Shown: one piece after another, positions 23,736 through 36,065 of the stretch
Position numbering within the stretch: the first letter of the stretch is position 1
Layout: each line of letters opens with the position of its first letter
Virus record (IMG/VR): IMGVR_UViG_3300047200_000362
Coordinates: 1-40,056 of that record
DNA from: a virus
Direction: 5' to 3' (one strand)
DNA: 40,056 nt
Notes under the pieces: generated by a model
What the model saw: only the letters and a program-made list of their open reading frames with translations
Database searches by the model: none
Told to the model about the DNA's origin: nothing
Program-made: the position numbers and the translations under genes

Positions 23736-23984
23736 CTATTGGGTATCTAATGCAATTAAATATTCTTTTATTGCCTTTTGTACATTGGCATATAATATTA
23801 AATTATCTGTTTTTATTGCATTATGGAAGTTGTTATCGAATGCCGTGTTGTATTTTCTTATGGCTATTGTTAGCCTGTTTGCTTTATACTCAATTGTTGA
23901 TACTGCTTTGTTGTATTGTTCTATTCCATTATCAACTATTAGTAAATCAAGGCATCCATAATCATCGTCATTATATGCGTTCAT
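23736..23984 (-). CDS. Hypothetical 82-residue helical protein
   Basis: Behind AAAAGAGAATAAA. Begins MNAYNDDDYGCLDLLIVDNG, then a long helix and KAIKEYLIALDTQ at the end. First gene after the structured RNA at 24025-24188, whose promoter it shares. Confidence 0.7.
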   Translation of the reverse strand: MNAYNDDDYGCLDLLIVDNGIEQYNKAVSTIEYKANRLTIAIRKYNTAFDNNFHNAIKTDNLILYANVQKAIKEYLIALDTQ

Positions 23985-24024: not shown

Positions 24025-24188
24025 AAAGGTTTTTATCAGTTTATAGCCGACTTAAAAACCTTTTCAAAAAATGGCTGTATTCGTATTGCTTCTTAATCTT
24101 GCATTATAAGCCACTAAGATTAAGAGAATGGCTTGGTTTTAAATCTTGTTATTTCTTTTCCCTATTGTGTTGCTTCCTTCAGAAAGTA
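24025..24188 (-). ncRNA. Twin structured RNA, copy B (or long structured leader)
   Basis: Transcribed from the class B promoter at 24182-24223. Main stem CUUAAUCUU/AAGAUUAAG (24116-24124 with 24092-24100). The loop contains UGGCUU, which can pair with AAGCCA (24134-24129) just before the stem, as in an H-type pseudoknot. It ends in hairpin AAAGGUUUUU/AAAAACCUUU (24025-24063). Aligns along its length with 26298-26460. No second promoter follows, so here it may be the leader of the 23984 gene. Confidence 0.6.
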
Positions 24189-24223
24189 TGATGTATTATT
24201 TCATACTTTTTGGTGATTGTTAA
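24182..24223 (-). promoter_or_regulatory. Class B promoter-operator 1
   Basis: GAAAGTATGA-N9-TCATACTTTT around -10 AATAAT; -35 is TTAACA. Drives RNA copy B and the 23984 operon. Confidence 0.85.
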
Positions 24224-24402
24224 GCAGTTATTATTCTGCTATTAAATAATGCGTTTTGAGCCTTTTTTTTGTCGCCAGCATGTAATGATAACAGTTTAAA
24301 CATATCGTTTGACCATGACGACATAGGACTGGAAAAATCAACACTTTTTGACCATCTGCTTGCTAATTGTTTTGATTCCAATTGTGTTTTATACTTTTTC
24401 AT
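24220..24402 (-). CDS. Hypothetical 60-residue protein
   Basis: MKKYKTQLESKQLASRWSKS; basic N-terminus, Ser-rich middle. Overlaps the upstream gene by 14 nt. Third gene of its operon. Unknown function. Confidence 0.66.
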   Translation of the reverse strand: MKKYKTQLESKQLASRWSKSVDFSSPMSSWSNDMFKLLSLHAGDKKKAQNALFNSRIITA

Positions 24403-24580
24403 TTTTGTTTAAATGTTCTATAGTTTTTTTAATGGAATCACACTTGGTTATTGTGATTCCTGCTACACCACTTTGAAGCAATGCTGTTATTATTGCATGG
24501 CTTGTTAGTTGTTCTTCGTCTATTATTTTAGACTTGGATAGGCTACCATTCCAATAGTCTAGCGTTAGCATAATTTTCAT
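24389..24580 (-). CDS. Hypothetical 63-residue protein
   Basis: ATGA overlap at the start. MKIMLTLDYWNGSLSKSKII; predicted alpha/beta (VAGITITKCDSIKKTIEHL). Unknown function. Confidence 0.68.
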   Translation of the reverse strand: MKIMLTLDYWNGSLSKSKIIDEEQLTSHAIITALLQSGVAGITITKCDSIKKTIEHLNKNEKV

Positions 24581-24855
24581 GCTGGAAGTCTGTATTTTGG
24601 TGCTGTTGGGTATTGTGATAATAATGAAAAGCCATATTCTAACATTGGCTCTTCTCTATCCTCTGTTATGCCTGTATATGCATTGGTTATCTTAGTGGAC
24701 CATGTAGGATCTGCAAACGATTCCCATTTTGACCAAGCATTACCAAAACCATTCCAGCCATAGCTTCTTTGATACCAGTGGCCTGTTGCGCTTTCTGCAA
24801 CTTCTACTGTTACACCATAACTATTGAACCCGGTAAACGCTCTTTTGGTTTTCAT
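24577..24855 (-). CDS. Hypothetical 92-residue protein
   Basis: Behind AAAGAGAATATC. Aromatic-rich (HWYQRSYGWNGFGNAWSKW), which suggests a beta fold that may bind sugars or peptides. First gene of a three-gene operon. Unknown function. Confidence 0.7.
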   Translation of the reverse strand: MKTKRAFTGFNSYGVTVEVAESATGHWYQRSYGWNGFGNAWSKWESFADPTWSTKITNAYTGITEDREEPMLEYGFSLLSQYPTAPKYRLPA

Positions 24856-24876
24856 GATATTCTCTTTGGTTGTTTT

Positions 24877-24918
24877 GAAAGTATGGTATATTATTTCATA
24901 CTTTTAGATGATTGTCAA
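24877..24918 (-). promoter_or_regulatory. Class B promoter-operator 2
   Basis: Inverted repeat with one changed position (GAAAGTATGG); -35 TTGACA, -10 AATAAT. Drives 24855-24220. Confidence 0.88.
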
Positions 24919-25113
24919 GCTGTTAATTAAATCATCTGGATTAATTTTAACAGGCTTGCCATTGACCATCAATTGTTCTGTTCTAAGAAAATATACTGCT
25001 AGCTTACCATTGGGTAATTTGAAGGAATAGTTTAGATTGTCTTCAACAAACAAAATATTATTTTCTATCGATAAATCAATGAAGGCTAAGTGGGATTCAA
25101 TTTCATTTTTCAT
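24904..25113 (-). CDS. Hypothetical 69-residue protein
   Basis: ATGA overlap with the gene upstream. MKNEIESHLAFIDLSIENNI; beta-rich. Its stop falls inside the next operator. Unknown function. Confidence 0.68.
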   Translation of the reverse strand: MKNEIESHLAFIDLSIENNILFVEDNLNYSFKLPNGKLAVYFLRTEQLMVNGKPVKINPDDLINSLTII

Positions 25114-25280
25114 GGTCTGCTCTTTAACTCTGTTATGTATGCATTAACAGCATTTTCATACAATACCCTTAGTGGTATGATTGAAAGGTTCATTGATAGT
25201 GCAAGATGATAATTATTTTGAGCCTGTTTTGCTTCTCTTAATAGAGTTGTGAGTTTTTCACTTTTGATATAATTGTACAT
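25110..25280 (-). CDS. Small helical protein (56 aa), paralogue of 25500
   Basis: MYNYIKSEKLTTLLREAKQA; ends ENAVNAYITELKSRP, matching SKNAVNAYLKELKGK of the neighbour at 25500-25673. Probably a tandem duplicate. No clear ribosome site. Unknown function. Confidence 0.68.
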   Translation of the reverse strand: MYNYIKSEKLTTLLREAKQAQNNYHLALSMNLSIIPLRVLYENAVNAYITELKSRP

Positions 25281-25299
25281 AATGTTTGTTGGTTTGATT

Positions 25300-25341
25300 G
25301 AAAGTATGATATATTATTTCATACTTTCAAGGGATTGTCAA
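25300..25341 (-). promoter_or_regulatory. Class B promoter-operator 3
   Basis: Perfect GAAAGTATGA-N9-TCATACTTTC; TTGACA / AATAAT with 17-nt spacer. Drives 25280-24904. Confidence 0.9.
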
Positions 25342-25344
25342 GCG

Positions 25345-25503
25345 TTATTGCAGGTTTTCTAATGCTTGCTTGGCAGCTATTTCAATTTTTAAAGCTTCAT
25401 AATATTCTGGATAGCTTTCTGTATCCAGCCGGTATTGCAATTGTAGCCTATTTCTAATTGCAGCTCCATAGGCGTTTTGGATGTCTTTTAGTGGATTACT
25501 CAT
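25345..25503 (-). CDS. Small helical protein (52 aa)
   Basis: MSNPLKDIQNAYGAAIRNRL; helical, A/Y/Q-rich like many neighbours. ATGA overlap with 25500. Last gene of a five-gene operon. Confidence 0.67.
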   Translation of the reverse strand: MSNPLKDIQNAYGAAIRNRLQLQYRLDTESYPEYYEALKIEIAAKQALENLQ

Positions 25504-25673
25504 TTGCCTTTAAGCTCCTTTAAATATGCATTAACAGCATTTTTGGATTCCTGAAAAAATTGTGCCTTGTTTATATCATTAGTTTGTATTGCTATCTTTA
25601 AAAATGCTTGCGCTCTTGTTGCGCTATTATAAAGACTTTTTAATTTTTGGCTGTTTTTGTTATAACTGTTCAT
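25500..25673 (-). CDS. Small helical protein (57 aa), paralogue of 25110
   Basis: MNSYNKNSQKLKSLYNSATR; C-terminus KNAVNAYLKELKGK is shared with the gene at 25110-25280. ATGA overlaps on both sides. Unknown function. Confidence 0.68.
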   Translation of the reverse strand: MNSYNKNSQKLKSLYNSATRAQAFLKIAIQTNDINKAQFFQESKNAVNAYLKELKGK

Positions 25674-25858
25674 TTTATTCTCTTTGTTGTTGATTCGCCA
25701 GGATACTCAATAAATATTTTTTGTTGCACATGATGAAAATAGTTGTTAAACAGGATTTTTTCAAGCCTTACAAGGATCTTACAAGCCATTGGATTATTAA
25801 ATTCCGCTTCCAACTCTTCTTTTAATTCCATTAAATCGTTTAAAATTTCATTGTTCAT
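25670..25858 (-). CDS. Hypothetical 62-residue helical protein
   Basis: MNNEILNDLMELKEELEAEF; acidic helix, then a basic end. Unknown function. Confidence 0.68.
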   Translation of the reverse strand: MNNEILNDLMELKEELEAEFNNPMACKILVRLEKILFNNYFHHVQQKIFIEYPGESTTKRIK

Positions 25859-26032
25859 TTAATGCACCACGTTGTTTAAATCTTGTTTGGCTTGCAATTC
25901 TGCAACAATAGAACTAATGTATTTTTGATGCAATGAAGCATTGTATGTATGACTGTTTTGAATCTGGTTGTGTATGTTTAATCTTGTTTTTTGTGCTTTG
26001 ACATAAGACTGTTTTAAATATTCGTATTTCAT
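25859..26032 (-). CDS. Small helical protein (57 aa)
   Basis: MKYEYLKQSYVKAQKTRLNI; Q/N/H-rich helices. Its TAA abuts the next start. Unknown function. Confidence 0.67.
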   Translation of the reverse strand: MKYEYLKQSYVKAQKTRLNIHNQIQNSHTYNASLHQKYISSIVAELQAKQDLNNVVH

Positions 26033-26046
26033 TTTATTGCCTTTTA

Positions 26047-26217
26047 TTATGAATTAAATACTATATTGGCAATTACTGTAATTGCAGCCGACGAAAAAAG
26101 AGTTGTCGCTATTGCTACACTAACAGGTAATACTACCCAAGCATTAATAACCATTACTAGCAATAATATACTAATAATTGTTCCTATTGATAAATCATAT
26201 AAATCTATATTTTTCAT
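26047..26217 (-). CDS. Two-span membrane protein (56 aa)
   Basis: MKNIDLYDLSIGTIISILLL; two hydrophobic segments (about 12-32 and 36-54). Behind AAAAGAGAACAAA. First gene of the operon. Confidence 0.7.
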   Translation of the reverse strand: MKNIDLYDLSIGTIISILLLVMVINAWVVLPVSVAIATTLFSSAAITVIANIVFNS

Positions 26218-26239
26218 TTTGTTCTCTTTTGGTTTGATT

Positions 26240-26281
26240 GAAAGTATGATATATTATTTCATACTTTTGTTTTATTGCCAA
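26240..26281 (-). promoter_or_regulatory. Class B promoter-operator 4
   Basis: Inverted repeat GAAAGTATGA / TCATACTTTT; -35 TTGGCA, -10 AATAAT. Drives the five genes 26217-25345. Confidence 0.87.
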
Positions 26282-26297
26282 GCTTTAAATTCTTTGA

Positions 26298-26460
26298 AGA
26301 CTTTTTTCTTTTTACGTCATACTAAAAAATCTATTGAAAAATGACGGTATTCGATATTGCTTTTAAGTTTTTCTTTTATAGCCACTTAAACTTAAAAATT
26401 GGCTGTTTGTATATCCTGTTATTTCTTTTCCCTTTTATTAATGCTTCCTTCCAGAAAGTA
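26298..26460 (-). ncRNA. Twin structured RNA, copy A
   Basis: Lies between two class B promoters with no reading frame, so it is probably an independent RNA. Main stem UUUUAAGUUU/AAACUUAAAA (26397-26388 with 26370-26361); loop UGGCU (26384-26380) pairs with AGCCA (26404-26400). The terminal hairpin AGAUUUUUU/AAAAAAGUCU sits at 26298-26332. Shares GGGAAAAGAAAUAACA, AGUGGCU, GCAAUA and CGAAUAC with copy B, while the stems differ but stay paired. Confidence 0.65.
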
Positions 26461-26495
26461 TGATATATTATTTCATACTTTTGTTTAATTGTCAA
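26454..26495 (-). promoter_or_regulatory. Class B promoter-operator 5
   Basis: Inverted repeat with TTGACA / AATAAT; drives structured RNA copy A. Confidence 0.88.
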
Positions 26496-26501
26496 GCTGT
26501 T

Positions 26502-26744
26502 TTATTTAATATTGTGAAATTCTTCAACTAAGAGCAAATAACCATTACCATTTTCAGCTACACCTACTACGGTAAAACCTTGATTTAATAGATATTTTTC
26601 TGCCTGCTCGTATGAATAACCATTACTGCCATCAAAAGATATAAAAACACTTGTATTATGCCTTAAACTATGTATTTTTAACCTATCTGACTTAATTCCT
26701 GTACATGGCATATAATTTACTGTTACGGCATGTATATTTTTCAT
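26502..26744 (-). CDS. Conserved small phage/plasmid hypothetical protein (80 aa)
   Basis: MKNIHAVTVNYMPCTGIKSD, then VFISFD and a C-terminal YLLNQGFTVVGVAENGNGYL. This pattern (short strands, then a helix ending 'G-vvG-AE') matches a widespread small hypothetical family of phages and plasmids as I remember it; function unknown. Confidence 0.75.
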   Translation of the reverse strand: MKNIHAVTVNYMPCTGIKSDRLKIHSLRHNTSVFISFDGSNGYSYEQAEKYLLNQGFTVVGVAENGNGYLLLVEEFHNIK

Positions 26745-26767
26745 TTAATTCTCTTTGGTAGTTGTTT

Positions 26768-26809
26768 TAAAGTATGATGTATTATTTCATACTTTCAAGG
26801 GATTGTCAA
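26768..26809 (-). promoter_or_regulatory. Class B promoter-operator 6
   Basis: Repeat with one changed end base (TAAAGTATGA); TTGACA / AATAAT. Drives 26744. Confidence 0.88.
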
Positions 26810-26817
26810 GCAGTTAA

Positions 26818-27171
26818 TTATCTTTGCTTAGAGTTTTTTACTGCTTTACTTGCAATCAATTCAATCTGATTTATTATACTATCAGTTAATTGCAAGTTAT
26901 TATTAATTATAAATGTACGTATTTCTTCAGTTATACCATAAACTTCAGCATAAGAGCCTTTAAGGAATATGTTTTTTAATGTCCCTTCAATACCATAAAA
27001 ATATTTCTCATCTTCAGGTTTGAATCCTTTTATATTTAATATAATATCTGGTCGTAGATAACCAGCTTCAGGGATTTTTTCACCATGTTTAATTATATTA
27101 TAAAATGGTTTATTTTCTATATTATATGATATATAAAAATCATAACCATTAACTGTATTAATTAGGTTCAT
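26818..27171 (-). CDS. Hypothetical 117-residue protein
   Basis: MNLINTVNGYDFYISYNIEN; beta-rich first half, then helical (ITEEIRTFIINNNLQLTDS). Single-gene unit behind AAAGAGAATTAA. Unknown function. Confidence 0.72.
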   Translation of the reverse strand: MNLINTVNGYDFYISYNIENKPFYNIIKHGEKIPEAGYLRPDIILNIKGFKPEDEKYFYGIEGTLKNIFLKGSYAEVYGITEEIRTFIINNNLQLTDSIINQIELIASKAVKNSKQR

Positions 27172-27195
27172 TTAATTCTCTTTGGTGATTTGATT

Positions 27196-27237
27196 GAAAG
27201 TATGGCGTATTATTTCATACTTTCAAGGGATTGTCAA
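27196..27237 (-). promoter_or_regulatory. Class B promoter-operator 7
   Basis: GAAAGTATGG variant with TCATACTTTC; TTGACA / AATAAT. Drives 27171. Confidence 0.88.
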
Positions 27238-27243
27238 GCGGTT

Positions 27244-27420
27244 TTAATTAAAATAATAAGCCAATTCATTGTCGTTTTCAAGATCCGTGAATGCTTTGGA
27301 ATAGTGTATATATGCAGCTATCGCATCGCTTGGAATATACATTCCTTCGGTTTCGTTATGCAATGCAGCGTTATAATGCTGGCAGTAAGCTTGTAATTTT
27401 ACTTCTAATGGATTGTTCAT
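27244..27420 (-). CDS. Small helical protein (58 aa), paralogue of 18415
   Basis: MNNPLEVKLQAYCQHYNAAL; shares the AYxxHYxAA ... EGxYIxSDxxAAYxxYxKA frame with the plus-strand gene at 18415-18576. Unknown function. Confidence 0.72.
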   Translation of the reverse strand: MNNPLEVKLQAYCQHYNAALHNETEGMYIPSDAIAAYIHYSKAFTDLENDNELAYYFN

Positions 27421-27444
27421 TTTATTCTCTTTGGTGGTTGTTTT

Positions 27445-27486
27445 GAAAGTATGATGTATTATTTCATACTTTCAAGGGATTGTCAA
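27445..27486 (-). promoter_or_regulatory. Class B promoter-operator 8
   Basis: Perfect inverted repeat; TTGACA / AATAAT. Drives 27420. Confidence 0.9.
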
Positions 27487-27488
27487 GG

Positions 27489-27689
27489 TTATTTAATTGG
27501 TTCAACTTCGTATTTATTATAGGCATCGACATAAATTTGATGCGCTTCTTTGTGGCTAATGGCTTTAAATACTTGATTGTATGCGATGTCGGCAGCTTTT
27601 TGTGCTTCCTCTTCAGCATCCTTGACCTGATTCATATAAACATAGTAGGCAGCTAAATATCTTTGTTTCAAACTTTCTTTAATATTCAT
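27489..27689 (-). CDS. Small helical protein (66 aa)
   Basis: MNIKESLKQRYLAAYYVYMN; alanine- and tyrosine-rich helices (EAHQIYVDAYNKYEVEPIK). Second gene after promoter 9. Unknown function. Confidence 0.69.
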   Translation of the reverse strand: MNIKESLKQRYLAAYYVYMNQVKDAEEEAQKAADIAYNQVFKAISHKEAHQIYVDAYNKYEVEPIK

Positions 27690-27699
27690 TTGATTTGCC

Positions 27700-27828
27700 T
27701 TAAATCTTGGTTACTTTGAAGACGTGATTATAAAAAAGCTCTATTTTCATTATGTCAATATCCGACATTAAAAAATACTGTACAAAATACTCATCCATAC
27801 TATTGATTGATTCAATTTTGCAATACAT
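27700..27828 (-). CDS. Hypothetical 42-residue protein
   Basis: Behind AAAAGAGAAATCAA. MYCKIESINSMDEYFVQYFL; amphipathic. Unknown function. Confidence 0.64.
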   Translation of the reverse strand: MYCKIESINSMDEYFVQYFLMSDIDIMKIELFYNHVFKVTKI

Positions 27829-27855
27829 TTGATTTCTCTTTTGGTTGGTTGTTTT

Positions 27856-27897
27856 GAAAGTATGATGTATTATTTCATACTTTTAATCAAATTGCAA
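27856..27897 (-). promoter_or_regulatory. Class B promoter-operator 9
   Basis: Inverted repeat intact; -35 weakened to TTGCAA, -10 AATAAT. Drives 27828 and 27689. Confidence 0.85.
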
Positions 27898-28063
27898 GCT
27901 TTATCTTTTCATAACAAGTATTAAATTCGCTTTCAAAATCATCTAATGCCTTGAGCATTACATTCCCTGTACGTTTATAATATTTTTTGCTTTTGTCCTT
28001 TTTTGCATAATCCTCTAATGCCAAGTGATAGGCTTGCTTTTTTGTATCTAATAGTGTCTTCAT
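27887..28063 (-). CDS. Small basic helical protein (58 aa)
   Basis: Start at MKTLLDTKKQAYHLALEDYA, behind AAAGAGAAATC; a longer frame upstream runs through a hairpin and is unlikely. Ends in the next promoter region. Unknown function. Confidence 0.68.
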   Translation of the reverse strand: MKTLLDTKKQAYHLALEDYAKKDKSKKYYKRTGNVMLKALDDFESEFNTCYEKIKLAI

Positions 28064-28085
28064 GATTTCTCTTTTGGTTTGGTTT

Positions 28086-28113
28086 ATCATCCCTGCAAAG
28101 TAACAAGGATGAT
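28086..28113. terminator. Hairpin, possible terminator or operator
   Basis: ATCATCC/GGATGAT around 14 nt, in the gap after the small-membrane-protein cluster. No strong T run follows. Confidence 0.4.
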
Positions 28114-28172
28114 GTTTTAAGGTGTTAAAATTGATGCTGGTAAGCTTTTAATGGTTTATTGAGCTGGTTGTA

Positions 28173-28313
28173 TCAGTTTACTTTTTTAATGCGCTCCACG
28201 ATGTAATTTAAGAAGCTAAAGGATAATACAATGAATAGGCTAATTGAAGTAATCGTTATAATGCCTAGCATCACCCAACTTATAACATCGAATAATAACC
28301 TTAATGCTTCCAT
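28173..28313 (-). CDS. Small membrane protein (46 aa)
   Basis: MEALRLLFDVISWVMLGIIT, one long hydrophobic segment, then a basic end (ERIKKVN). Overlaps its upstream neighbour by 13 nt. Confidence 0.66.
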   Translation of the reverse strand: MEALRLLFDVISWVMLGIITITSISLFIVLSFSFLNYIVERIKKVN

Positions 28314-28435
28314 AATACTTTAACTCCGTAAACGATTATTAAAATAACTGCAATGGCAAGGGATAAGACAAATATAATATAAAAGATATAAAGCCAATCT
28401 AAAAAATTCCATAAGATAACGAATAACTCAAACAT
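28301..28435 (-). CDS. Small membrane protein (44 aa)
   Basis: MFELFVILWNFLDWLYIFYI, then LSLAIAVILIIVYG: one or two spans, short basic end (KVLWKH). Middle of a three-gene membrane cluster. Confidence 0.66.
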   Translation of the reverse strand: MFELFVILWNFLDWLYIFYIIFVLSLAIAVILIIVYGVKVLWKH

Positions 28436-28438
28436 GGT

Positions 28439-28525
28439 TTAATCATCCCTTTCGATATGATGTTCTAAAATTGTTGCTATTATTAACATAACAAATAATA
28501 AAACTGTGAATAATATGCCTAACAT
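28439..28525 (-). CDS. 28-residue membrane peptide
   Basis: MLGILFTVLLFVMLIIATIL then a charged tail (EHHIERDD). AGGAATCGTC before the ATG. Short but well placed in the operon. Confidence 0.6.
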   Translation of the reverse strand: MLGILFTVLLFVMLIIATILEHHIERDD

Positions 28526-28533
28526 GACGATTC

Positions 28534-28716
28534 CTAGTGTTTAATGAAAGCTGTTGATTTTATATCTGAATGGTTCTTTTTATCATCAACTTCTGCAATA
28601 GTATAATACAAATAACAACCTTGATAAGCTGGAATCAATCTTGGTGCAATTGATTCATTTTTAGTATAATATTGGAATTGACCATCTTGTGTTGTATGAC
28701 TGGTAAAGTTTTTCAT
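28534..28716 (-). CDS. Hypothetical 60-residue protein
   Basis: MKNFTSHTTQDGQFQYYTKN; beta-rich and aromatic. First gene after promoter 10. Unknown function. Confidence 0.67.
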   Translation of the reverse strand: MKNFTSHTTQDGQFQYYTKNESIAPRLIPAYQGCYLYYTIAEVDDKKNHSDIKSTAFIKH

Positions 28717-28745
28717 TTGATATTCTCTTTTGGTTGGTTGTTTTT

Positions 28746-28787
28746 GAAAGTATTATGTATTATTTCATACTTTCAGGGGATTGTCAA
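28746..28787 (-). promoter_or_regulatory. Class B promoter-operator 10
   Basis: One arm changed (GAAAGTATTA); TTGACA / AATAAT. Drives the 28716 operon. Confidence 0.86.
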
Positions 28788-28791
28788 GCAG

Positions 28792-28986
28792 TTATTTTGT
28801 GGCTTGATATTTTGTAAAACCTAATGCATTATTAATCAATTCAATTTTAGCATCTCTTAACGCATCATAAGCAGCTTTGTAAATGTCCTGAGATTCTTTA
28901 ATCATATCATGCGCTTTTTCTTCTATTAAAAAGGCTTGTATACCTGCTTTTTCGCAAGCAATTTCCAATTCTCTAATATTGTTCAT
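28792..28986 (-). CDS. Small helical protein (64 aa)
   Basis: MNNIRELEIACEKAGIQAFL; A/E/K-rich helices with IYKAAYDALRDAK. Same style as other short helical paralogues. Unknown function. Confidence 0.7.
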   Translation of the reverse strand: MNNIRELEIACEKAGIQAFLIEEKAHDMIKESQDIYKAAYDALRDAKIELINNALGFTKYQATK

Positions 28987-29014
28987 TTTATTCTCTTTGT
29001 TGGTTGGTTGTTTT

Positions 29015-29056
29015 GAAAGTATGATGTATTATTTCATACTTTCTTTTGATTGTCAA
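29015..29056 (-). promoter_or_regulatory. Class B promoter-operator 11
   Basis: Perfect inverted repeat; TTGACA / AATAAT. It lies inside the 3' end of the gene at 29034, whose TGA is part of the operator. Confidence 0.9.
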
Positions 29057-29189
29057 GCTGGTTTTCAAGCTTTTTAAAAATTTCTTTTAATTCTTCACAT
29101 TCTTCTGAAGTTGAATCTTTTAAACATGCATTAAAATAATTTACCCAAGATATATCTCTTTCTTTTCTCAATTCTTTTAAAGTCTTCAT
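29034..29189 (-). CDS. Hypothetical charged helical protein (51 aa)
   Basis: MKTLKELRKERDISWVNYFN; E/K-rich. The final residues (LDNQKKV) are the promoter read in frame. It has no promoter of its own and follows a terminator hairpin. Unknown function. Confidence 0.62.
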   Translation of the reverse strand: MKTLKELRKERDISWVNYFNACLKDSTSEECEELKEIFKKLENQLDNQKKV

Positions 29190-29210
29190 AATTTTCTTTT
29201 GGTTTGGTGG

Positions 29211-29245
29211 TTAAAATAGCCTTTAAAGGGATTCTAAAGGCTATT
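29211..29245 (-). terminator. Terminator after the 401-residue gene
   Basis: On the minus strand AATAGCCTTT pairs with AAAGGCTATT (11-nt loop), followed by TTTT. Confidence 0.65.
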
Positions 29246-29285
29246 GGTGACGTGTTAAAGTTTGCTTGGCTGGATTGTATTAACT

Positions 29286-30491
29286 TTAATCTATTAAGCC
29301 CCTAATGTATTCTAATTCTTCTACTAGCTTTGCCTCATTGTCTGGTTCAAAACAATCAAATTGAATATTTGCAATTTCAATTTCAATGCTTGATATAAAA
29401 TTTTCCAATTGTTCTTTAATATAATATCCTTCTGAAATAAAATAATATTCTTTGTCGCTTTCTATGCAGTTTTCACTCAATGCGTAATTATCACCGTTTT
29501 CTTTTTTTATTGTCAATTCTGTACAATCTTCTAGCAATTCTATATCATCATCAATCGTAACAGTATCATCTATTAAATAATACTTGTTTACACTTTCGAC
29601 ATATATTATATCATCGTCTTCGATATGATAATATTCATCATCACTTTCGCATCTTACTATATTGTCATTATGGACATATTCACCAATGGAATCTAAATAT
29701 GTATAATTATCATCCACACATCTTGAACATATTGTTTCATCGTTAATATAATTGCAATCATCTTCGTGTGTTGAGCATCCGCAATTATCACAATAACAGG
29801 TATTATTATCTGCATAACCACTTGTAGTATTACATTCTATATCACCATGGCATGAAACTTCTAAATATTCATCATCTATAATACGAACGTTTTGTTCGTA
29901 TCCATCAAGGTAGGGTGCAACAAAACCTCTATCACATTCTATATATTTTAATTTTATTCCACTTAAATTGCCACAAGTATTAAATCCTGCCTTACGTATA
30001 ATCGCGTGTATTATAGGTGATTTAATCTGATTATGGTCAATATAGATTCTAACAAATGTTTTATTATCATGCCTAACAAGTGATCGCGCAACAAGTTGAC
30101 TGTTTTTATAAACTGTTAATAGAGCCAAGTTTGGATCATAGTCATAAATTCGTACGCAGTCCATTCCAGTCATACAGCTGCAACTTGTTGAATCAATTGC
30201 ATAAAGTGGCGTCTTATATGCTTGGACATAATCTTGGGTATATTTAACCTTATATTGGCTTATATCACCATTAATTTCTTTGAACTCTTCTACATATTCT
30301 TTAATTGCATCATCATCCATTGATGTATTACCTTTTAGCAATTTGCCTAACTTAACTTGACTAGTATGGCGACCTTTTGTAATTTGTACCATTGGTGGTT
30401 CAAGTGGTTCAATGGCTGTTATCTGGTTTGTTGAATCTTGAATGATTCTATTTAAAGTTGGTTGGAGACTTGAATCAAATAAATATTTCAT
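29286..30491 (-). CDS. Acidic Cys-rich putative zinc protein (401 aa)
   Basis: Largest gene of the right tract. The middle (about residues 210-265) has paired cysteines and histidines (CHGDIECN; CYCDNCGCSTHEDDC; ICSRC) that could form one or two zinc fingers. The C-terminal 150 residues repeat short acidic, tyrosine-rich units such as YVHNDNIVRCESDDEYY and YVESVNKYYLIDD. The N-terminal half is not recognised. Single gene from promoter 12, with a poor ribosome site. Probably a host-interaction protein, but that is a guess. Confidence 0.78.
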   Translation of the reverse strand: MKYLFDSSLQPTLNRIIQDSTNQITAIEPLEPPMVQITKGRHTSQVKLGKLLKGNTSMDDDAIKEYVEEFKEINGDISQYKVKYTQDYVQAYKTPLYAIDSTSCSCMTGMDCVRIYDYDPNLALLTVYKNSQLVARSLVRHDNKTFVRIYIDHNQIKSPIIHAIIRKAGFNTCGNLSGIKLKYIECDRGFVAPYLDGYEQNVRIIDDEYLEVSCHGDIECNTTSGYADNNTCYCDNCGCSTHEDDCNYINDETICSRCVDDNYTYLDSIGEYVHNDNIVRCESDDEYYHIEDDDIIYVESVNKYYLIDDTVTIDDDIELLEDCTELTIKKENGDNYALSENCIESDKEYYFISEGYYIKEQLENFISSIEIEIANIQFDCFEPDNEAKLVEELEYIRGLID

Positions 30492-30514
30492 TTTAGTAAA
30501 AATTGGTCTGGATT

Positions 30515-30556
30515 GAAAGTATGATGTATTATTTCATACTTTTAAGGGATTGTCAA
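30515..30556 (-). promoter_or_regulatory. Class B promoter-operator 12
   Basis: Inverted repeat with TTGACA / AATAAT. Drives the 401-residue gene. Confidence 0.88.
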
Positions 30557-30600
30557 GCTGGATTTTTAATTTCTTTTCAAAAAATCCAGCTCTTCAGGTT
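30557..30600 (-). ncRNA. Candidate minimal hairpin RNA
   Basis: A promoter variant at 30594-30635 would start a transcript of about 40 nt that consists almost wholly of GCUGGAUUUUU/AAAAAUCCAGC (11 pairs, 12-nt loop). It ends just before the -35 of promoter 12. It may simply be a terminator; a nine-codon frame (MHNLKSWIF) also fits inside. Confidence 0.4.
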
Positions 30601-30635
30601 GTGCATATTATTTCATAGTTTTTGGTTGTTGTCAA
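30594..30635 (-). promoter_or_regulatory. Class B promoter 13, divergent operator
   Basis: TTGACA and AATAAT are kept, but only one operator half (AAAACTATGA) survives. Confidence 0.65.
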
Positions 30636-30640
30636 ACAAT

Positions 30641-30718
30641 TTATAATATTTTATCCAATATGAATGGAAGTATAGCTAACACTATTATGGTTAAGATTAT
30701 AACTAATTGGAAAGTCAT
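30641..30718 (-). CDS. 25-residue hydrophobic peptide, toxin-like
   Basis: MTFQLVIILTIIVLAILPFI then LDKIL: one membrane span of the size and character of type I toxin peptides (Ibs, TisB-like). Its ribosome site AAAGGCU can be hidden in AGCCaaaaGGCU, and a highly structured leader (30749-30876) precedes it. Toxicity is inference. Confidence 0.55.
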   Translation of the reverse strand: MTFQLVIILTIIVLAILPFILDKIL

Positions 30719-30748
30719 TTTAAAGCCTTTTGGCTGGTTGTTGAAGTG

Positions 30749-30876
30749 GTTAAAAAACAATTCAGTAAGAGCATAGGAATGCCATTAAAATTATCGTAAG
30801 CCTATTCTATACTGCCAGTTTTCACAATTCCCACCATTAAAATTATCGTAAGTGGCAAGCTGAATTGTTTTTTAAC
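30749..30876 (-). ncRNA. Double-hairpin structured RNA with a repeated 19-nt loop
   Basis: Closed by a perfect 17-bp stem, GUUAAAAAACAAUUCAG with CUGAAUUGUUUUUUAAC. Inside are two hairpins, CCAC/GUGG and AUAGG/CCUAU, that display the same 19-nt CUUACGAUAAUUUUAAUGG (30834-30852 and 30782-30800). Transcribed from promoter 14. Could be a sponge or antisense RNA, or a regulatory leader of the 25-residue peptide. Confidence 0.7.
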
Positions 30877-30884
30877 TACTTTTT

Positions 30885-30926
30885 GAAAGTATGATGTATT
30901 ATTTCATACTTTCAAGGGATTGTCAA
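30885..30926 (-). promoter_or_regulatory. Class B promoter-operator 14
   Basis: Perfect inverted repeat; TTGACA / AATAAT. Drives the double-hairpin RNA. Confidence 0.9.
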
Positions 30927-30934
30927 TCTTTATT

Positions 30935-31276
30935 TTACCACCGGCCATGATGTCCATAATAGCCATGATTGCCTGTAATACCGTATAAAATGCCACCGAT
31001 TATAGGTGTAATAATTTGATATTGTTGTTGTTGTTGATACTGGTATTGATACTGCTGTTGCTGTTGATAATATTGTTGTTGTTGTCTATAAACCTGTTCA
31101 TTTTGTCGGTTATATTGTCTTTGTTGCTCCAATTGCTGTTGTTGCGCTTGTTGCTCCTGCAATTGCTGGATCTGTTGTTGTTGTTGGTATATTTGATAAT
31201 CTCTTTGGTCTGCATTCACATTCCCTGCCAAGGCACTCAAAAGCACTGCCAAGCCTATTGTTATTTTCGTTTTCAT
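30935..31276 (-). CDS. Exported glutamine-rich protein (113 aa)
   Basis: A Sec signal peptide (residues 1-22, MKTKITIGLAVLLSALAG; likely cut after VNA) is followed by about 60 residues dominated by Gln, Tyr and Arg (runs such as IYQQQQQIQQLQEQ), then a Gly/His/Tyr C-terminus (GILYGITGNHGYYGHHGRW). Low complexity; it may self-associate in the periplasm or at the surface. Behind AAAGAGAATAAA. Confidence 0.78.
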   Translation of the reverse strand: MKTKITIGLAVLLSALAGNVNADQRDYQIYQQQQQIQQLQEQQAQQQQLEQQRQYNRQNEQVYRQQQQYYQQQQQYQYQYQQQQQYQIITPIIGGILYGITGNHGYYGHHGRW

Positions 31277-31300
31277 TTTATTCTCTTTGGTGGTTGTTTT

Positions 31301-31342
31301 GAAAGTATGATGTATTATTTCATACTTTCAAGTGATTGTCAA
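31301..31342 (-). promoter_or_regulatory. Class B promoter-operator 15
   Basis: Perfect inverted repeat; TTGACA / AATAAT. Drives the Q-rich gene. Confidence 0.9.
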
Positions 31343-31346
31343 GCGA

Positions 31347-31667
31347 TTAGTTAAAGTCTTCTAAATTATTTAAAAATTCTTTGTGATGATTAATTATAAT
31401 ATCTTTTATTTCCAAGTCAACTTCTAAGTCAAAATTGGCATTTTCAAGATTGTTAATAATATTCTCTTGTTCTAACACCTGCGCTTCAAGATTACAATTA
31501 TCATCTTTTAAGTGGCTTATATATTCTAACGCACCTTCATAAGCATCTTGAATTAACTCAACTTGGCATTCAAGGTCTATGTAATCGTCAACGAAAAGAT
31601 AAAGTATATCGAATAATTCTGGATCAATTTTATTTGCAGCAAGGTAGTTCAGTAATTTAATGCTCAT
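31347..31667 (-). CDS. Acidic coiled-coil protein (106 aa)
   Basis: MSIKLLNYLAANKIDPELFD; residues 40-95 have heptads rich in L, I, N and E (LEAQVLEQENIINNLENANF). Strongly acidic. Unknown function. Confidence 0.74.
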   Translation of the reverse strand: MSIKLLNYLAANKIDPELFDILYLFVDDYIDLECQVELIQDAYEGALEYISHLKDDNCNLEAQVLEQENIINNLENANFDLEVDLEIKDIIINHHKEFLNNLEDFN

Positions 31668-31694
31668 TTTTATATTTCTCTTTAAGGTTGTTTT

Positions 31695-31736
31695 GAAAGT
31701 ATGATGTATTATTTCATACTTTCATTTGATTGTCAA
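31695..31736 (-). promoter_or_regulatory. Class B promoter-operator 16
   Basis: Perfect inverted repeat; TTGACA / AATAAT. Drives 31667. Confidence 0.9.
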
Positions 31737-31740
31737 GCGA

Positions 31741-31965
31741 TTATTTATTATTTCTTACCCAAGATTTTCTGGTATCATTTGAAAGTATTGCATATAAACC
31801 GCACAATACCCAGCCTATAACACACCAACCAGTCAAAAAATTTGCAAGGAATATCAATCCTAATTTTCGATGATTCCTGAAAATTGCAATTATAAATGGT
31901 AAAAAATAGCAAATTGATGCTAGTATAATGTAAATTAAGCCAAACGCAACTAGTGTTTCTAACAT
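31741..31965 (-). CDS. imm: Superinfection immunity protein, T4 Imm-like
   Basis: A 74-residue protein with two membrane segments in the order of the Imm_superinfect family: YFLPFIIAIFRNHRKLG, a short cytoplasmic loop, then FLTGWCVIGWVLCGLYAI. T4 Imm sits in the inner membrane and blocks DNA entry of superinfecting related phages. The family assignment is from pattern memory, but the motif order is distinctive. Confidence 0.85.
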   Translation of the reverse strand: MLETLVAFGLIYIILASICYFLPFIIAIFRNHRKLGLIFLANFLTGWCVIGWVLCGLYAILSNDTRKSWVRNNK

Positions 31966-31981
31966 TTTTTAATCCTCTTTT

Positions 31982-32023
31982 TAAAGTATGGTGTATTATT
32001 TCATACTATTGGTTATTTGTCAA
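31982..32023 (-). promoter_or_regulatory. Class B promoter-operator 17
   Basis: Repeat changed at both ends (TAAAGTATGG / TCATACTATT); TTGACA / AATAAT. Drives imm. Confidence 0.85.
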
Positions 32024-32028
32024 GCAGT

Positions 32029-32256
32029 TTATAATTCCTGATATGTAATTGATACACTATTGGGGATGTGCTTTGGTCTATCCTGTTGAAAATATTGAGT
32101 AATTGAAGAAACAAATACATCATTCCTTAAATCATTTAAAAATTTGTCAGTGTTTACCTTGTCTTTGTCATATATCCATACACTGCCTGACCACACATTT
32201 ATCCTTTCGATTGATATATCATACCTTTTTGCATATTTCTCAATTTTGTCCTTCAT
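32029..32256 (-). CDS. Hypothetical 75-residue protein
   Basis: Start at MKDKIEKYAKRYDISIERIN (ATGA overlap; AAGG upstream). Alpha/beta, with WSGSVWIYDKDKVNTDKFL. Last gene of a seven-gene operon. Unknown function. Confidence 0.68.
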   Translation of the reverse strand: MKDKIEKYAKRYDISIERINVWSGSVWIYDKDKVNTDKFLNDLRNDVFVSSITQYFQQDRPKHIPNSVSITYQEL

Positions 32257-32378
32257 ATTAAAACCTTCGCAAGTCCAGCGATTATAGCACAACCCGCAAT
32301 TATTAGCAAGGTGAATAAAAATCCTGCCAATGCGTCATGATCATAAGTTGCCTTTAGTTCTTCTAGTAGCCTATTCAT
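32253..32378 (-). CDS. Small membrane protein (41 aa)
   Basis: MNRLLEELKATYDHDALAGF then one span (LFTLLIIAGCAIIAGLA). ATGA overlaps on both sides. Confidence 0.67.
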   Translation of the reverse strand: MNRLLEELKATYDHDALAGFLFTLLIIAGCAIIAGLAKVLI

Positions 32379-32725
32379 TTGATTTTGCACACATAATTGA
32401 TGCTTAAGTCTTCAAAAGGTAGGGTACTATCAGTTTGAGTAAATGAATATATGTCTGGCTTGCAATTTGTGCAATTTCCGCTCCCAAGTCCATAATAATA
32501 TTGCTTTGTTTTGCAGTTTATCCATAAGTCATTATTAATACCACCATTGATCTCGTTAGCGTAGACTAACTGAAAGCCTTTAACTGTTTTATCAGTGGTT
32601 GTTAGTGTAATCGTGGGCGACAATTTTACAATTTTTGGTGATGCTTCTGCCTTTATATTTACACCATAAAGCAATATTGCAGCCAGCGATAAAAGGGTAA
32701 TGCTTAATTTGTTTTGAAAGGTCAT
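32375..32725 (-). CDS. Exported protein with four cysteines (116 aa)
   Basis: Signal peptide at residues 1-26 (SITLLSLAAILLYGVNIKA), then a beta-rich mature part with Cys in NCKTK, GNCTNCKP and YVCKIK, able to form two disulphides in the periplasm. Unknown function. Confidence 0.74.
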   Translation of the reverse strand: MTFQNKLSITLLSLAAILLYGVNIKAEASPKIVKLSPTITLTTTDKTVKGFQLVYANEINGGINNDLWINCKTKQYYYGLGSGNCTNCKPDIYSFTQTDSTLPFEDLSINYVCKIK

Positions 32726-32889
32726 TTTGTTACCTTTTTAGTTTTAATAAACAATGAAAGGGCAGCGGTAAATAAAATGTAATCTACCCAACCAATTTCA
32801 AGTCCAGTTAAATTAAGTAGTAAACACACAATAAAAGCTAATACTAAACTTTTAATAATTTTTTCTACGTTAATGCATGATGTGTTCAT
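32722..32889 (-). CDS. Two-span membrane protein (55 aa)
   Basis: MNTSCINVEKIIKSLVLAFI, hydrophobic segments at about 13-30 and 35-49, basic end (KTKKVTK). ATGA overlap with the exported protein gene. Confidence 0.68.
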   Translation of the reverse strand: MNTSCINVEKIIKSLVLAFIVCLLLNLTGLEIGWVDYILFTAALSLFIKTKKVTK

Positions 32890-32901
32890 TTGTTGATTCC
32901 T

Positions 32902-33060
32902 TTAAGTTATTTTTAAAGATTCGTTATAAGATTTCCTGGCAGCTATCAATCTTTGTTCTGCAATATCTGCCAATTTCAGGCTAACATGCCAGTTATGTGC
33001 AAATTGTACATGTGCCAATGCCTTTACATATTCTTTTAATATTTCTTCTGTTGTTTGCAT
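32902..33060 (-). CDS. Small helical protein (52 aa)
   Basis: MQTTEEILKEYVKALAHVQF; A/H/K-rich helices ending ARKSYNESLKIT, similar in style to 3659 and 19885 (EEYxxAL). Start overlaps the upstream TAA. Confidence 0.68.
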   Translation of the reverse strand: MQTTEEILKEYVKALAHVQFAHNWHVSLKLADIAEQRLIAARKSYNESLKIT

Positions 33061-33281
33061 TAAAATTTACCCAGTTCAAACATAATATGATCATACATTA
33101 TTTCTTGATAGTCGATGATATTAAAACTGTTATCATAATCGTATAACTTTAACAGCCTTTTCAAATATTGCTTATACAAGCCATTCCATTCTTTAGGCTT
33201 TACATCGACATTACTAAGCATTAAAAATTCTTCTACGATGCCTTTAGCTTGCTTTAAAACTATCCTTTCGACATTGTTCAT
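33060..33281 (-). CDS. Hypothetical 73-residue helical protein
   Basis: MNNVERIVLKQAKGIVEEFL; helical, aromatic (YKQYLKRLLKLYDYDN). Its ATG lies in the end of the frameshifted gene. Unknown function. Confidence 0.7.
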   Translation of the reverse strand: MNNVERIVLKQAKGIVEEFLMLSNVDVKPKEWNGLYKQYLKRLLKLYDYDNSFNIIDYQEIMYDHIMFELGKF

Positions 33282-33456
33282 AGTCCGATCACTTCGCTAT
33301 TCTTTGCGGTCAATTCGTCAAAATTTTTACACCATGTTTTATAATATATTTGATAAACTATGTGTGTAATCTCATCATTTAAGTAGCACTGTAACGCTAA
33401 ATTTACATTTTTCAGTGATTTTAAATAAATTGCATTCAATTCTGCTAAATTTTTCA
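33278..33456 (-). pseudogene. Frameshifted duplicate of the MKNLAEL gene
   Basis: Starts MKNLAELNAIYL, then stops at codon 15. Adding one A at about 33420 would restore an open frame of 59 codons to the TGA at 33278 (SLKNVNLALQCYLND ... NSEVIGL). The start and about 80 nt of upstream DNA duplicate those of the intact gene at 33530. A one-base deletion or a sequencing slip. Confidence 0.65.
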
Positions 33457-33480
33457 TTTTAAATTCTCTTTTTGGTTTTT

Positions 33481-33522
33481 GAAAGTATGATGTATTATTT
33501 CATACTTTCAAGGGATTGTCAA
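33481..33522 (-). promoter_or_regulatory. Class B promoter-operator 18, duplicated -35
   Basis: Perfect inverted repeat; TTGACA / AATAAT. An 11-bp tandem duplication gives a second TTGACA 11 bp further upstream (33528-33533), too far to pair with the same -10. Confidence 0.9.
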
Positions 33523-33529
33523 GGGATTG

Positions 33530-33721
33530 TCAAGCTACATCATCAATTATTTTAGTTAATATCTTATCAATGGCAATATCTAATCCGTTAATAACGGCAT
33601 CATCAAAATATGTATTTTTTTTTGTATTGTTTACATTAGCTTTGGAAAATTTATCATAAGCATCAATATAAACCTCGGCAGCTTGATTTTTTAATTGTTC
33701 TAATTCTGCTAAATTTTTCAT
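33530..33721 (-). CDS. Small helical protein (63 aa)
   Basis: MKNLAELEQLKNQAAEVYID; A/Y/D-rich helices (AYDKFSKANV). Intact paralogue of the frameshifted gene at 33278, with the same leader. Its stop touches promoter 18. Confidence 0.7.
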   Translation of the reverse strand: MKNLAELEQLKNQAAEVYIDAYDKFSKANVNNTKKNTYFDDAVINGLDIAIDKILTKIIDDVA

Positions 33722-33744
33722 TTTAAATTCTCTTTTTGGTTTTT

Positions 33745-33786
33745 GAAAGTATGATGTATTATTTCATACTTTCAATGGATTGTCAA
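33745..33786 (-). promoter_or_regulatory. Class B promoter-operator 19
   Basis: Perfect inverted repeat; TTGACA / AATAAT. Drives 33721. Confidence 0.9.
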
Positions 33787-33790
33787 GCTG

Positions 33791-33946
33791 TTATTTGATT
33801 GGTTCTTCAGGATCTAATACACGTTCGATAAATTTCTCAATGCACCATTCAATCCACATTAATTTTGTATCCTCATTCCAATATTCTGTGGATAATGATT
33901 CCTCATTATCCCGTATCCATTGACCTGTTGTTGGTATTGTACCCAT
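33791..33946 (-). CDS. Hypothetical acidic 51-residue protein
   Basis: MGTIPTTGQWIRDNEESLST; tryptophan-rich (LMWIEWCIEKFIERV). Single-gene unit. Contains an isolated DnaA-box-like TGTGGATAA, probably coincidental. Confidence 0.66.
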   Translation of the reverse strand: MGTIPTTGQWIRDNEESLSTEYWNEDTKLMWIEWCIEKFIERVLDPEEPIK

Positions 33947-33971
33947 TTTATTATTCTCTTTTGGTTTGATT

Positions 33972-34013
33972 GAAAGTATGATGTATTATTTCATACTTTC
34001 AAGGGATTGTCAA
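33972..34013 (-). promoter_or_regulatory. Class B promoter-operator 20
   Basis: Perfect inverted repeat; TTGACA / AATAAT. Drives 33946. Confidence 0.9.
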
Positions 34014-34016
34014 GCT

Positions 34017-34184
34017 TTATTGTGAATGCTTCCATTTTCTATAATACTTTACAGCATCCAATTCAGTGTAGAATCCTGCGCTATCCAGCAAAATATTGTT
34101 AAATTGATCTGTTACAATTACACACCAATTAACCATGTTAGATTTATAAATCCTGACTTTGTTTGTTGGTTTTCGTTTACTCAT
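34017..34184 (-). CDS. Hypothetical basic 55-residue protein
   Basis: MSKRKPTNKVRIYKSNMVNW; basic N-terminus, then beta-alpha (DAVKYYRKWKH). ATGA overlap at the start. Unknown function. Confidence 0.67.
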   Translation of the reverse strand: MSKRKPTNKVRIYKSNMVNWCVIVTDQFNNILLDSAGFYTELDAVKYYRKWKHSQ

Positions 34185-34429
34185 TGTTCTAATTCCTGCT
34201 TAATTGCCTTAACTTGCGAATGATAAAAATCATAAGCGATTTCTCTGGAATTTATAACGGCAGTGGTTGGATCAAACAAACGTGAAAATATTGCTATATT
34301 TTCGCTAAACTCATGAAAATTGTATTTTGCTTCTTTTTCAGTTTTTGCGATTGTTGCTTTATAGGCAATTAAAAATCTTTGGCATTCTAATGCGATTTTT
34401 TTCTTGGTTGTGGTCCTGAATCTGCTCAT
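34181..34429 (-). CDS. Hypothetical 82-residue helical protein
   Basis: MSRFRTTTKKKIALECQRFL; basic start, long helices, ending SQVKAIKQELEQ. AAGAGAATACC before the ATG. Unknown function. Confidence 0.7.
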   Translation of the reverse strand: MSRFRTTTKKKIALECQRFLIAYKATIAKTEKEAKYNFHEFSENIAIFSRLFDPTTAVINSREIAYDFYHSQVKAIKQELEQ

Positions 34430-34456
34430 GGTATTCTCTTTTTTGTTGGTTGTTTT

Positions 34457-34498
34457 GAAAGTATGATGTATTATTTCATACTTTTAGGTGATTGTCAA
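34457..34498 (-). promoter_or_regulatory. Class B promoter-operator 21
   Basis: GAAAGTATGA / TCATACTTTT; TTGACA / AATAAT. Drives 34429 and 34184. Confidence 0.88.
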
Positions 34499-34559
34499 AC
34501 ATAATTTATTAAATAATCGTCCAAGTTTTCTTGCTCAATAATTACTATAGTTTGTTTCT

Positions 34560-34796
34560 TTATTTTTTTTTTTCACATATTTTAACATTCTTAACCAATT
34601 GATTAAATAATGCTTGGGTAATTGTTTTTTGGTTATCATAAAGACAAGATAAAACATAATGTATTATTTTCAAGTCCTTAGTTTGTCTATTAGTTAATCC
34701 ATTAAATTCATAATATGACTTTAATAAACTTTCATGTTCTTTTATGCTTTCTATTAATATACGGCCATTTTCAAACCTTAAATATTCGTGTAACAC
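34560..34796 (-). CDS. Hypothetical 78-residue protein ending in an A11 run
   Basis: Likely GTG start (MLHEYLRFENGR), with AGGA 12 nt before it; this start is unsure. The gene ends at a run of eleven A (EKKK, then TAA). One extra A would add 22 residues (IKKQTIVIIEQENLDDYLIN, then YV) and place the stop inside the next TTGACA, as at several other units. Either a slippage site, a recent deletion, or a sequencing error. Confidence 0.6.
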   Translation of the reverse strand: MLHEYLRFENGRILIESIKEHESLLKSYYEFNGLTNRQTKDLKIIHYVLSCLYDNQKTITQALFNQLVKNVKICEKKK

Positions 34797-34817
34797 TGTT
34801 TTTATGTTTCCTATACG

Positions 34818-34855
34818 ATTGCCATGATTAAATATTATCGTCCAATCATGGCAAT
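34818..34855. repeat. Perfect 12-bp inverted repeat
   Basis: ATTGCCATGATT/AATCATGGCAAT around 14 nt, between two genes of one operon and just upstream of the GTG-start gene. No T run on the minus strand, so more likely an operator or mRNA processing hairpin than a terminator. Confidence 0.55.
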
Positions 34856-34861
34856 ATTTTG

Positions 34862-35023
34862 TTATTGAAAATTAAAATCTATTTCTGGGAATGCTTGCCT
34901 TAAATCGTCCAATTGCTTTATTATGATCTCTTTGTCCTCTTCTGATAATGCCTCTATGCAATGCTTAAGAGTCCAATAAGAATCCAATAGGCAGTTAGTT
35001 TGTTTATATGTAAGCACTGGCAT
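34862..35023 (-). CDS. Hypothetical 53-residue protein, paralogue of 35004
   Basis: MPVLTYKQTNCLLDSYWTLK; the end LRQAFPEIDFNFQ resembles ELETAFPDIDFYEL of the neighbouring gene, so the two are probably tandem duplicates. They overlap by 20 nt. Confidence 0.67.
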   Translation of the reverse strand: MPVLTYKQTNCLLDSYWTLKHCIEALSEEDKEIIIKQLDDLRQAFPEIDFNFQ

Positions 35024-35174
35024 TTAACTCATAAAAATCAATATCAGGGAATGCAGTTTCGAGCTCCTTACAAGTTAAGTCATTATCCTGCGTTTTGAGC
35101 ACCTTTAAATCCTGATACGCCTGTATTATAGCATTCAATTGTTTTTGTGTCAAGCAATTAATTCTAAACTTCAT
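35004..35174 (-). CDS. Hypothetical 56-residue protein, paralogue of 34862
   Basis: Start taken at MKFRINCLTQKQLNAIIQAY; an ATG five codons earlier is possible. Overlaps the upstream stop by 11 nt. Unknown function. Confidence 0.65.
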   Translation of the reverse strand: MKFRINCLTQKQLNAIIQAYQDLKVLKTQDNDLTCKELETAFPDIDFYELNASAYI

Positions 35175-35343
35175 AGCTATAGCCAGCATTAACCACTTTG
35201 ACTTCCTTAACTGTTTGTTTCAAAAGACTAATCGCCAAGTTTTCATTAAACATTGTTTCATTGCTGATATAATCAGTGTAAAATACTTGATATTTGTTGG
35301 AATAACCTGATATTGTTTCGACTTTATATGTTTTTGTATTCAT
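35164..35343 (-). CDS. Hypothetical 59-residue protein
   Basis: Start at MNTKTYKVETISGYSNKYQV, behind AAAAGAGGCAATACA. The frame runs further upstream only because the operator happens to be open. Beta-rich. Unknown function. Confidence 0.7.
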   Translation of the reverse strand: MNTKTYKVETISGYSNKYQVFYTDYISNETMFNENLAISLLKQTVKEVKVVNAGYSYEV

Positions 35344-35373
35344 TGTATTGCCTCTTTTGTTTTTGGTTGTTTT

Positions 35374-35415
35374 GAAAGTATGGTGTATTATTTCATACTT
35401 TTGGGTTATTGTCAA
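35374..35415 (-). promoter_or_regulatory. Class B promoter-operator 22
   Basis: GAAAGTATGG / TCATACTTTT; TTGACA / AATAAT. Drives 35343-34560. Confidence 0.87.
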
Positions 35416-35621: not shown

Positions 35622-35631
35622 TTTGTTACCG

Positions 35632-35999: not shown

Positions 36000-36017
36000 T
36001 TGATTTTCTCTTTGTTT

Positions 36018-36059
36018 GAAAGTATGATGTATTATTTCATACTTTTAGGTTATTGTCAA
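36018..36059 (-). promoter_or_regulatory. Class B promoter-operator 23
   Basis: GAAAGTATGA / TCATACTTTT; TTGACA / AATAAT. Drives 35999-35412. Confidence 0.88.
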
Positions 36060-36065
36060 GTCTTT

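Follow-up and report, generated by a model that had tools for sequence, protein, structure and literature searches.

A predicted double-pseudoknot RNA present in two diverged copies in the early-type promoter array of a T4-like phage

The phage fragment and its promoter cassettes

The window, by which we mean the whole 40,056-base stretch analysed (virus record IMGVR_UViG_3300047200_000362), is a fragment of a T4-like phage. A UvsW-type helicase is encoded by an ORF (8177-10723, plus strand) that is split by an intein-like Hint domain carrying a LAGLIDADG homing endonuclease. Further products are a gp3-type tail completion protein, an NAD-dependent DNA ligase and an RNA ligase. The top named matches of the tail completion protein are cyanophage gp3 proteins. 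Protein identity to the best named phages is below 60%. Searches of IMG/VR with three window proteins found no close relatives of the phage, and a fourth protein returned distant ones only. A 597-aa ORF (5343-7136, minus strand) carries numerous HEAT-like repeats of the form HPNATxxHIxxAL, and ATTTGGG-rich units are repeated head-to-tail at 39193-39354, where two identical 51-nt copies are included.

The right part of the window is a minus-strand array of small ORFs, each following a near-identical promoter cassette. In this cassette (AAAGTATGAAATAATAcATCATACTTT), 9-base inverted arms flank the -10 box and TTGACA lies 17 bases away. The array extends over 24183-38264 (minus strand), where 26 sites match exactly or nearly so, and a weaker one lies at 38854. 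The inverted arms, AAAGTATGA...TCATACTTT, hardly vary and might also serve as an operator or as an RNA hairpin in read-through transcripts. The promoter-leader stretches at 33438-33523 and 33702-33787 are 99% identical over 86 nt and precede ORFs that both begin MKNLAEL; this pair appears to be a recent cassette duplication. Diverged variants of the cassette (e.g. TTGACAACAACCAAAAACTATGAAATAATATGCACAACC) occur on the minus strand at 30583-30647 and 38808-38854; they may be decaying copies or belong to a second class of promoter.

In 24 of the 27 cassettes, 23-46 nt separate the predicted transcription start from the ORF start. The three exceptions are the two RNA copies described below, A and B, and a structured stretch at 30.9 kb. 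This third stretch without an ORF directly after its promoter (30735-30890, minus strand) is predicted to fold into a long stem, GUUAAAAAACAAUUCAG/CUGAAUUGUUUUUUAAC, around two hairpins that each contain CUUACGAUAAUUUUAAUGG. Its folding z-score is -3.37, none of 200 shuffles was equally stable, and a 24-codon hydrophobic ORF begins at 30717. We regard it as a candidate second structured RNA.

The promoters of A and B are both members of the 27-member early cassette array, which is of the TTGACA-17-TG-AATAAT type. That of copy A (24183-24223, minus strand) reads TTAACA-17-AATAAT with TG before the -10 box, within the AAAGTATGA...TCATACTTT palindrome cassette. That of copy B (26455-26495, minus strand) reads TTGACA-17-AATAAT and has the same palindrome. 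Transcription is predicted to start about 7 nt past the -10 box, at ~24188 for A and ~26460 for B. The original prediction had each RNA begin at a promoter, and its 5' ends fall within about a base of these starts.

Two homologous RNAs with tandem pseudoknots

Copy A (24025-24188, minus strand) runs from the predicted transcription start to the end of its second pseudoknot and is homologous to copy B (26298-26460, minus strand), which is followed by no ORF before the next promoter. The two stretches had been said to align along their length, and BLASTN bears this out: A finds B with an E value of 1.9e-31 and 76% identity over 196 nt, promoter included. Within the RNA body the copies differ by ~29% substitutions. 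The homology spans the promoter to just beyond pseudoknot 2 (PK2) and then ends. With these limits, promoter plus RNA behaves like a copied cassette of promoter plus ORF.

Each RNA is predicted to open with a 5'-terminal hairpin, CUUUC-UGAA-GGAAG in A (24173-24186, minus strand) and CUUUCU-GGA-AGGAAG in B (26444-26458, minus strand), closed in both cases with CUUUC from the 3' arm of the promoter. The other 25 listed cassettes continue otherwise, mostly with CAAAAC or CAATC. Downstream of the hairpin lies a purine-rich block of 16 nt, GGGAAAAGAAAUAACA (24147-24162 in A and 26417-26432 in B, both minus strand), which is identical in the two copies and predicted to be single-stranded. Perfect conservation of an unpaired block despite the ~29% divergence of the body speaks for a base-pairing small RNA, in which this block would pair with mRNAs and the pseudoknots would merely protect the 3' end. 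However, no 13-nt complement to the block occurs elsewhere in the window, and of all conserved features the double pseudoknot is the most elaborate. We consider a base-pairing RNA improbable.

The original prediction described a main stem in each RNA, CUUAAUCUU/AAGAUUAAG and UUUUAAGUUU/AAACUUAAAA, with a loop UGGCU pairing with an AGCCA just before the stem. Both stems exist, and the crossing pairs are present in both copies. Pseudoknot 1 (PK1) is thus formed by AGCCA/UGGCU with UCUUAAUCUU/AAGAUUAAGA in A (24091-24134, minus strand) and by AGCCA/UGGCU with UUUUUAAGUUU/AAACUUAAAAG in B (26360-26404, minus strand). A conserved linker follows on the minus strand, AGCAAUACGAAUAC in A (24077-24090) and CAAUAUCGAAUAC in B (26347-26359). 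The element beyond it had been described as a further hairpin. It is indeed present in both copies, but it is actually a second H-type pseudoknot, made by AGCC/GGCU with AAAGGUUUUUA/UAAAAACCUUU in A (24025-24076, minus strand) and by CGUCAU/AUGACG with AGAUUUUUU/AAAAAGUCU in B (26298-26346, minus strand).

In these pseudoknots the first stem has 4-6 pairs and the second 9-11 pairs, with stacking sums between about -9 and -14 kcal/mol for each stem. PK1 has short first loops; those of PK2 are longer and U-rich. The third loops are A-rich and ~8-10 nt long (e.g. AUAAAAGAA and UAAAAAGA). In the modelled structures, such third loops, together with first loops that are U-rich at some sites, would suit groove triples.

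The claim that the stems covary was well founded. Three helices are in register in the alignment. Their 23 shared pairs are without exception standard in A and in B, this single pair of copies from one genome being the whole basis of the comparison; six of these pairs are changed on both sides and one is changed on one side. When the 3' partners were slid by 1-3 columns as a control, pairing fell to 37-67% with 0-1 double changes. The fourth helix, stem 1 of PK2, is one column off in the alignment; once this shift is corrected, two more pairs prove to be changed on both sides (A-U to C-G and C-G to U-A). A G-U pair in the PK2 stem of B and the crossing topology fit a minus-strand RNA better than an inverted repeat in DNA.

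Could such pairing arise by chance in an AT-rich duplicated intergenic stretch? A lone pseudoknot is not rare: each shuffled 40-kb strand yields 6-21 matches at a score of at least 18. The nested-only folding energies of the two copies are likewise ordinary (z of -0.78 and +0.47). We place the weight on covariation and repetition, and both tell against chance. Both pseudoknots survive ~29% divergence with paired changes, and the offset controls fail to reproduce this. None of 200 shuffles of either stretch matched its best pseudoknot score. When A was diverged in simulation to the observed extent, both pseudoknots were retained in 0 of 1500 copies, a figure that is indicative only, as the simulations used independent substitutions and no indels. 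Chance is therefore disfavoured, and we judge it very improbable.

The repetition extends within each RNA. PK1 of B and PK2 of A compare with a score of 66.5, against 31.1 +/- 4.5 for shuffles (0 of 1000 as high), and the similarity between PK1 and PK2 of B was equalled by 1 of 1000 shuffles; the remaining two cross-comparisons of PK1 with PK2 were without significance. PK1 and PK2 are related repeats, and their sequences suggest descent from one ancestral unit. Taken together, these data lead us to regard the predicted fold of both RNAs as very probably correct. That selection has acted at the RNA level we consider highly likely, again on the evidence of the sequences.

Reading frames, neighbouring ORFs and relatives

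Reading frames within the RNAs are trivial only, and none is common to both copies. We considered a small peptide encoded in the RNA and rejected it, since the frames are not shared and show no start or ribosome-site pattern. Copy A lies 204 nt, counted from its transcription start, upstream of an 82-codon ORF (23736-23984, minus strand) that has the usual AAAGAGAAUAAAAUG leader. Copy B meets another promoter (26241-26281, minus strand; TTGGCA-17-AATAAT) before any ORF, and this second promoter is followed by a hydrophobic ORF of 56 aa (26047-26217, minus strand). Neither the 82-aa nor the 56-aa ORF had a convincing match in a PHROG search, and the two are unrelated to each other. Unrelated ORFs beside the copies argue against control of one particular gene. 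Together with the lack of a usable frame in either copy and the pairing that has been kept, they point to a function at the RNA level.

One copy had been placed between two promoters with no gene, which is correct for B; from this the original prediction drew that the RNA must act as RNA. That wording was too strong. No terminator signal was found after copy A or copy B, so the B transcript may run into the 56-aa ORF, while A doubles as a long leader for the ORF of 82 aa. Both copies could be leaders.

As a cis-acting 5' leader, the RNA would use its pseudoknots and 5' hairpin to stabilise the transcript or to control translation of the next ORF. That A immediately precedes an ORF whose ribosome-binding leader is normal fits this, as does the absence of a visible terminator after either copy, and T4-type phages do use such an element in the gene 32 leader, where an autoregulatory pseudoknot lies upstream in the transcript (PMC3014915). 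Like the gene 32 leaders of T4, T2 and RB69, the A and B RNAs belong to a T4-type phage, have a pseudoknot in the 5' part of the transcript and are set in A+U-rich sequence. They differ from them in having two tandem pseudoknots, which exceeds what gene 32 uses, in occurring at two loci, and in that B has no ORF before the next promoter. The gene 32 pseudoknot precedes the gene for the single-stranded DNA-binding protein that it regulates, whereas the ORFs near A and B (82 and 56 aa) have no convincing counterpart in PHROG. The comparison is in keeping with a leader role for A, but it fits neither the position of B, which a full promoter separates from its ORF, nor the unrelated ORFs downstream. 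Moreover, 24 other cassettes express their ORFs without any such leader. A leader role is possible, but we think it rather unlikely. We lean slightly towards the RNA working in trans and not as a leader.

Searches for relatives covered several collections. Rfam 15 gave no match in the window at the gathering score, and elsewhere a relaxed threshold gave matches at chance level only. Two DNA patterns had no matches in IMG/VR. Matches to two further patterns there were rejected after a pseudoknot filter as terminators, coding sequence or chance, with no true relative among the matches listed for the fourth pattern. One pattern with the pseudoknot filter on GTDB contigs likewise gave no relative among the matches listed. 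Low-stringency BLASTN against GenBank phages and plasmids produced short matches only. The best of these, to Acinetobacter plasmids (E of 0.04 over PK1), was set aside, as it lacks the UGGCU arm and has no such pseudoknot. A covariance model built from A and B recovered only the two copies in the window and, in 10 other phage records, three weak matches (E of ~0.4), none of them convincing. A covariance search in related phages is weak here because no close relative of the phage was found. As far as the searched collections show, the A/B RNA looks like a new phage RNA.

Proposed role and comparison with known systems

Our best reading is an early non-coding RNA cassette that was duplicated and encodes a trans-acting RNA, its two pseudoknots binding a protein of the host or of the phage; we would put this at about an even chance. 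An RNA gene in two diverged copies would sit in the early-type promoter cassette array, and its product would be transcribed early and be stable. Acting in trans as a decoy or inhibitor, it would offer both pseudoknots to such a protein. That it is specifically a protein decoy or inhibitor is a tentative suggestion, which we hold to be less likely than not. More doubtful still is the larger proposal that these RNAs represent a new family of phage RNA inhibitors: stand-alone, duplicated, with two tandem long-stem pseudoknots, and disabling a host protein early in infection. Candidate targets for an inhibitor would be a defence nuclease, an RNA-decay enzyme or a polymerase.

To our knowledge, almost all phage factors for counter-defence and host takeover are proteins. 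A double pseudoknot that appears to be under strong selection, in two copies within an early-type array, is thus a candidate RNA for counter-defence or host takeover. It also suggests that structured RNA genes can occupy cassette arrays that are usually annotated for ORFs alone.

The RNAs known to consist of tandem pseudoknots are ToxI, CptI and TenpI, which act as antitoxins in type III toxin-antitoxin systems. Like them, the A/B RNA consists of tandem H-type pseudoknots with an A-rich third loop. In the literature, the unit is 36 nt long in ToxI-Pa and 45 nt in CptI, the latter with a determined structure (PMC4627078). For ToxN we surveyed loci from 392 genomes of one phylum and examined 25 of these loci. 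An upstream array of 2.6-3.9 copies of 32-43 nt was present at 15 of the 25 loci. Where the automatic fit gave the expected fold, these repeats had a stem 1 of 4-5 pairs, a loop 1 of 0-2 nt, a stem 2 of 3-6 bp and a loop 3 that was often A-rich; some fits, including that of PK2 in B, chose alternative pairings and were not used. The A/B unit is longer, at ~57 nt versus 32-43 nt, and its stem 2 has 9-11 bp versus 3-6 bp. We therefore rejected membership of the A/B RNA in the ToxI family on geometry (unit length and stem 2). ToxI repeats are nearly identical; the A/B units share an origin but are strongly diverged. The ToxI family has the ToxN gene directly downstream; the ORFs next to the A/B RNAs are of 56 and 82 aa.

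An RNA could nevertheless imitate the repeats of a type III system (ToxIN, CptIN or TenpIN) and so neutralise a toxin released during infection. Phage PhiTE provides a precedent, as it escapes ToxIN by means of a pseudo-ToxI RNA (PMC5449768). Type III antitoxins follow the plan of pseudoknots repeated in tandem, with A-rich third loops, and a location in the early promoter array fits counter-defence. On the other side, the RNA has two diverged units of ~57 nt, with a stem 2 of 9-11 bp and a loop 1 mostly longer than in the ToxN-linked repeats, and a PF13958 search, which was likewise without a match in the control genomes, found no ToxN-type gene in the window. We think an antitoxin mimic quite improbable. 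The plan is shared but the geometry is not, and the window yielded no ToxN-type gene in that search. We do not file the A/B RNA as a type III antitoxin; binding of a host or phage protein in trans remains our preferred reading.

The surrounding array invites a further comparison, with the promoter early stem-loops (PeSL) of T4-type phages, each an early promoter combined with a transcription-terminating stem-loop. Judged against a partial account of PeSL cassettes, the array differs in that its inverted repeat surrounds the -10 box and that no terminator-like signal lies near the A and B RNAs. On the same partial account, it resembles PeSL cassettes in that its small ORFs are interspersed with numerous near-identical promoters of early type that carry an inverted repeat, and its cassettes, like them, are plausible units of shuffling.
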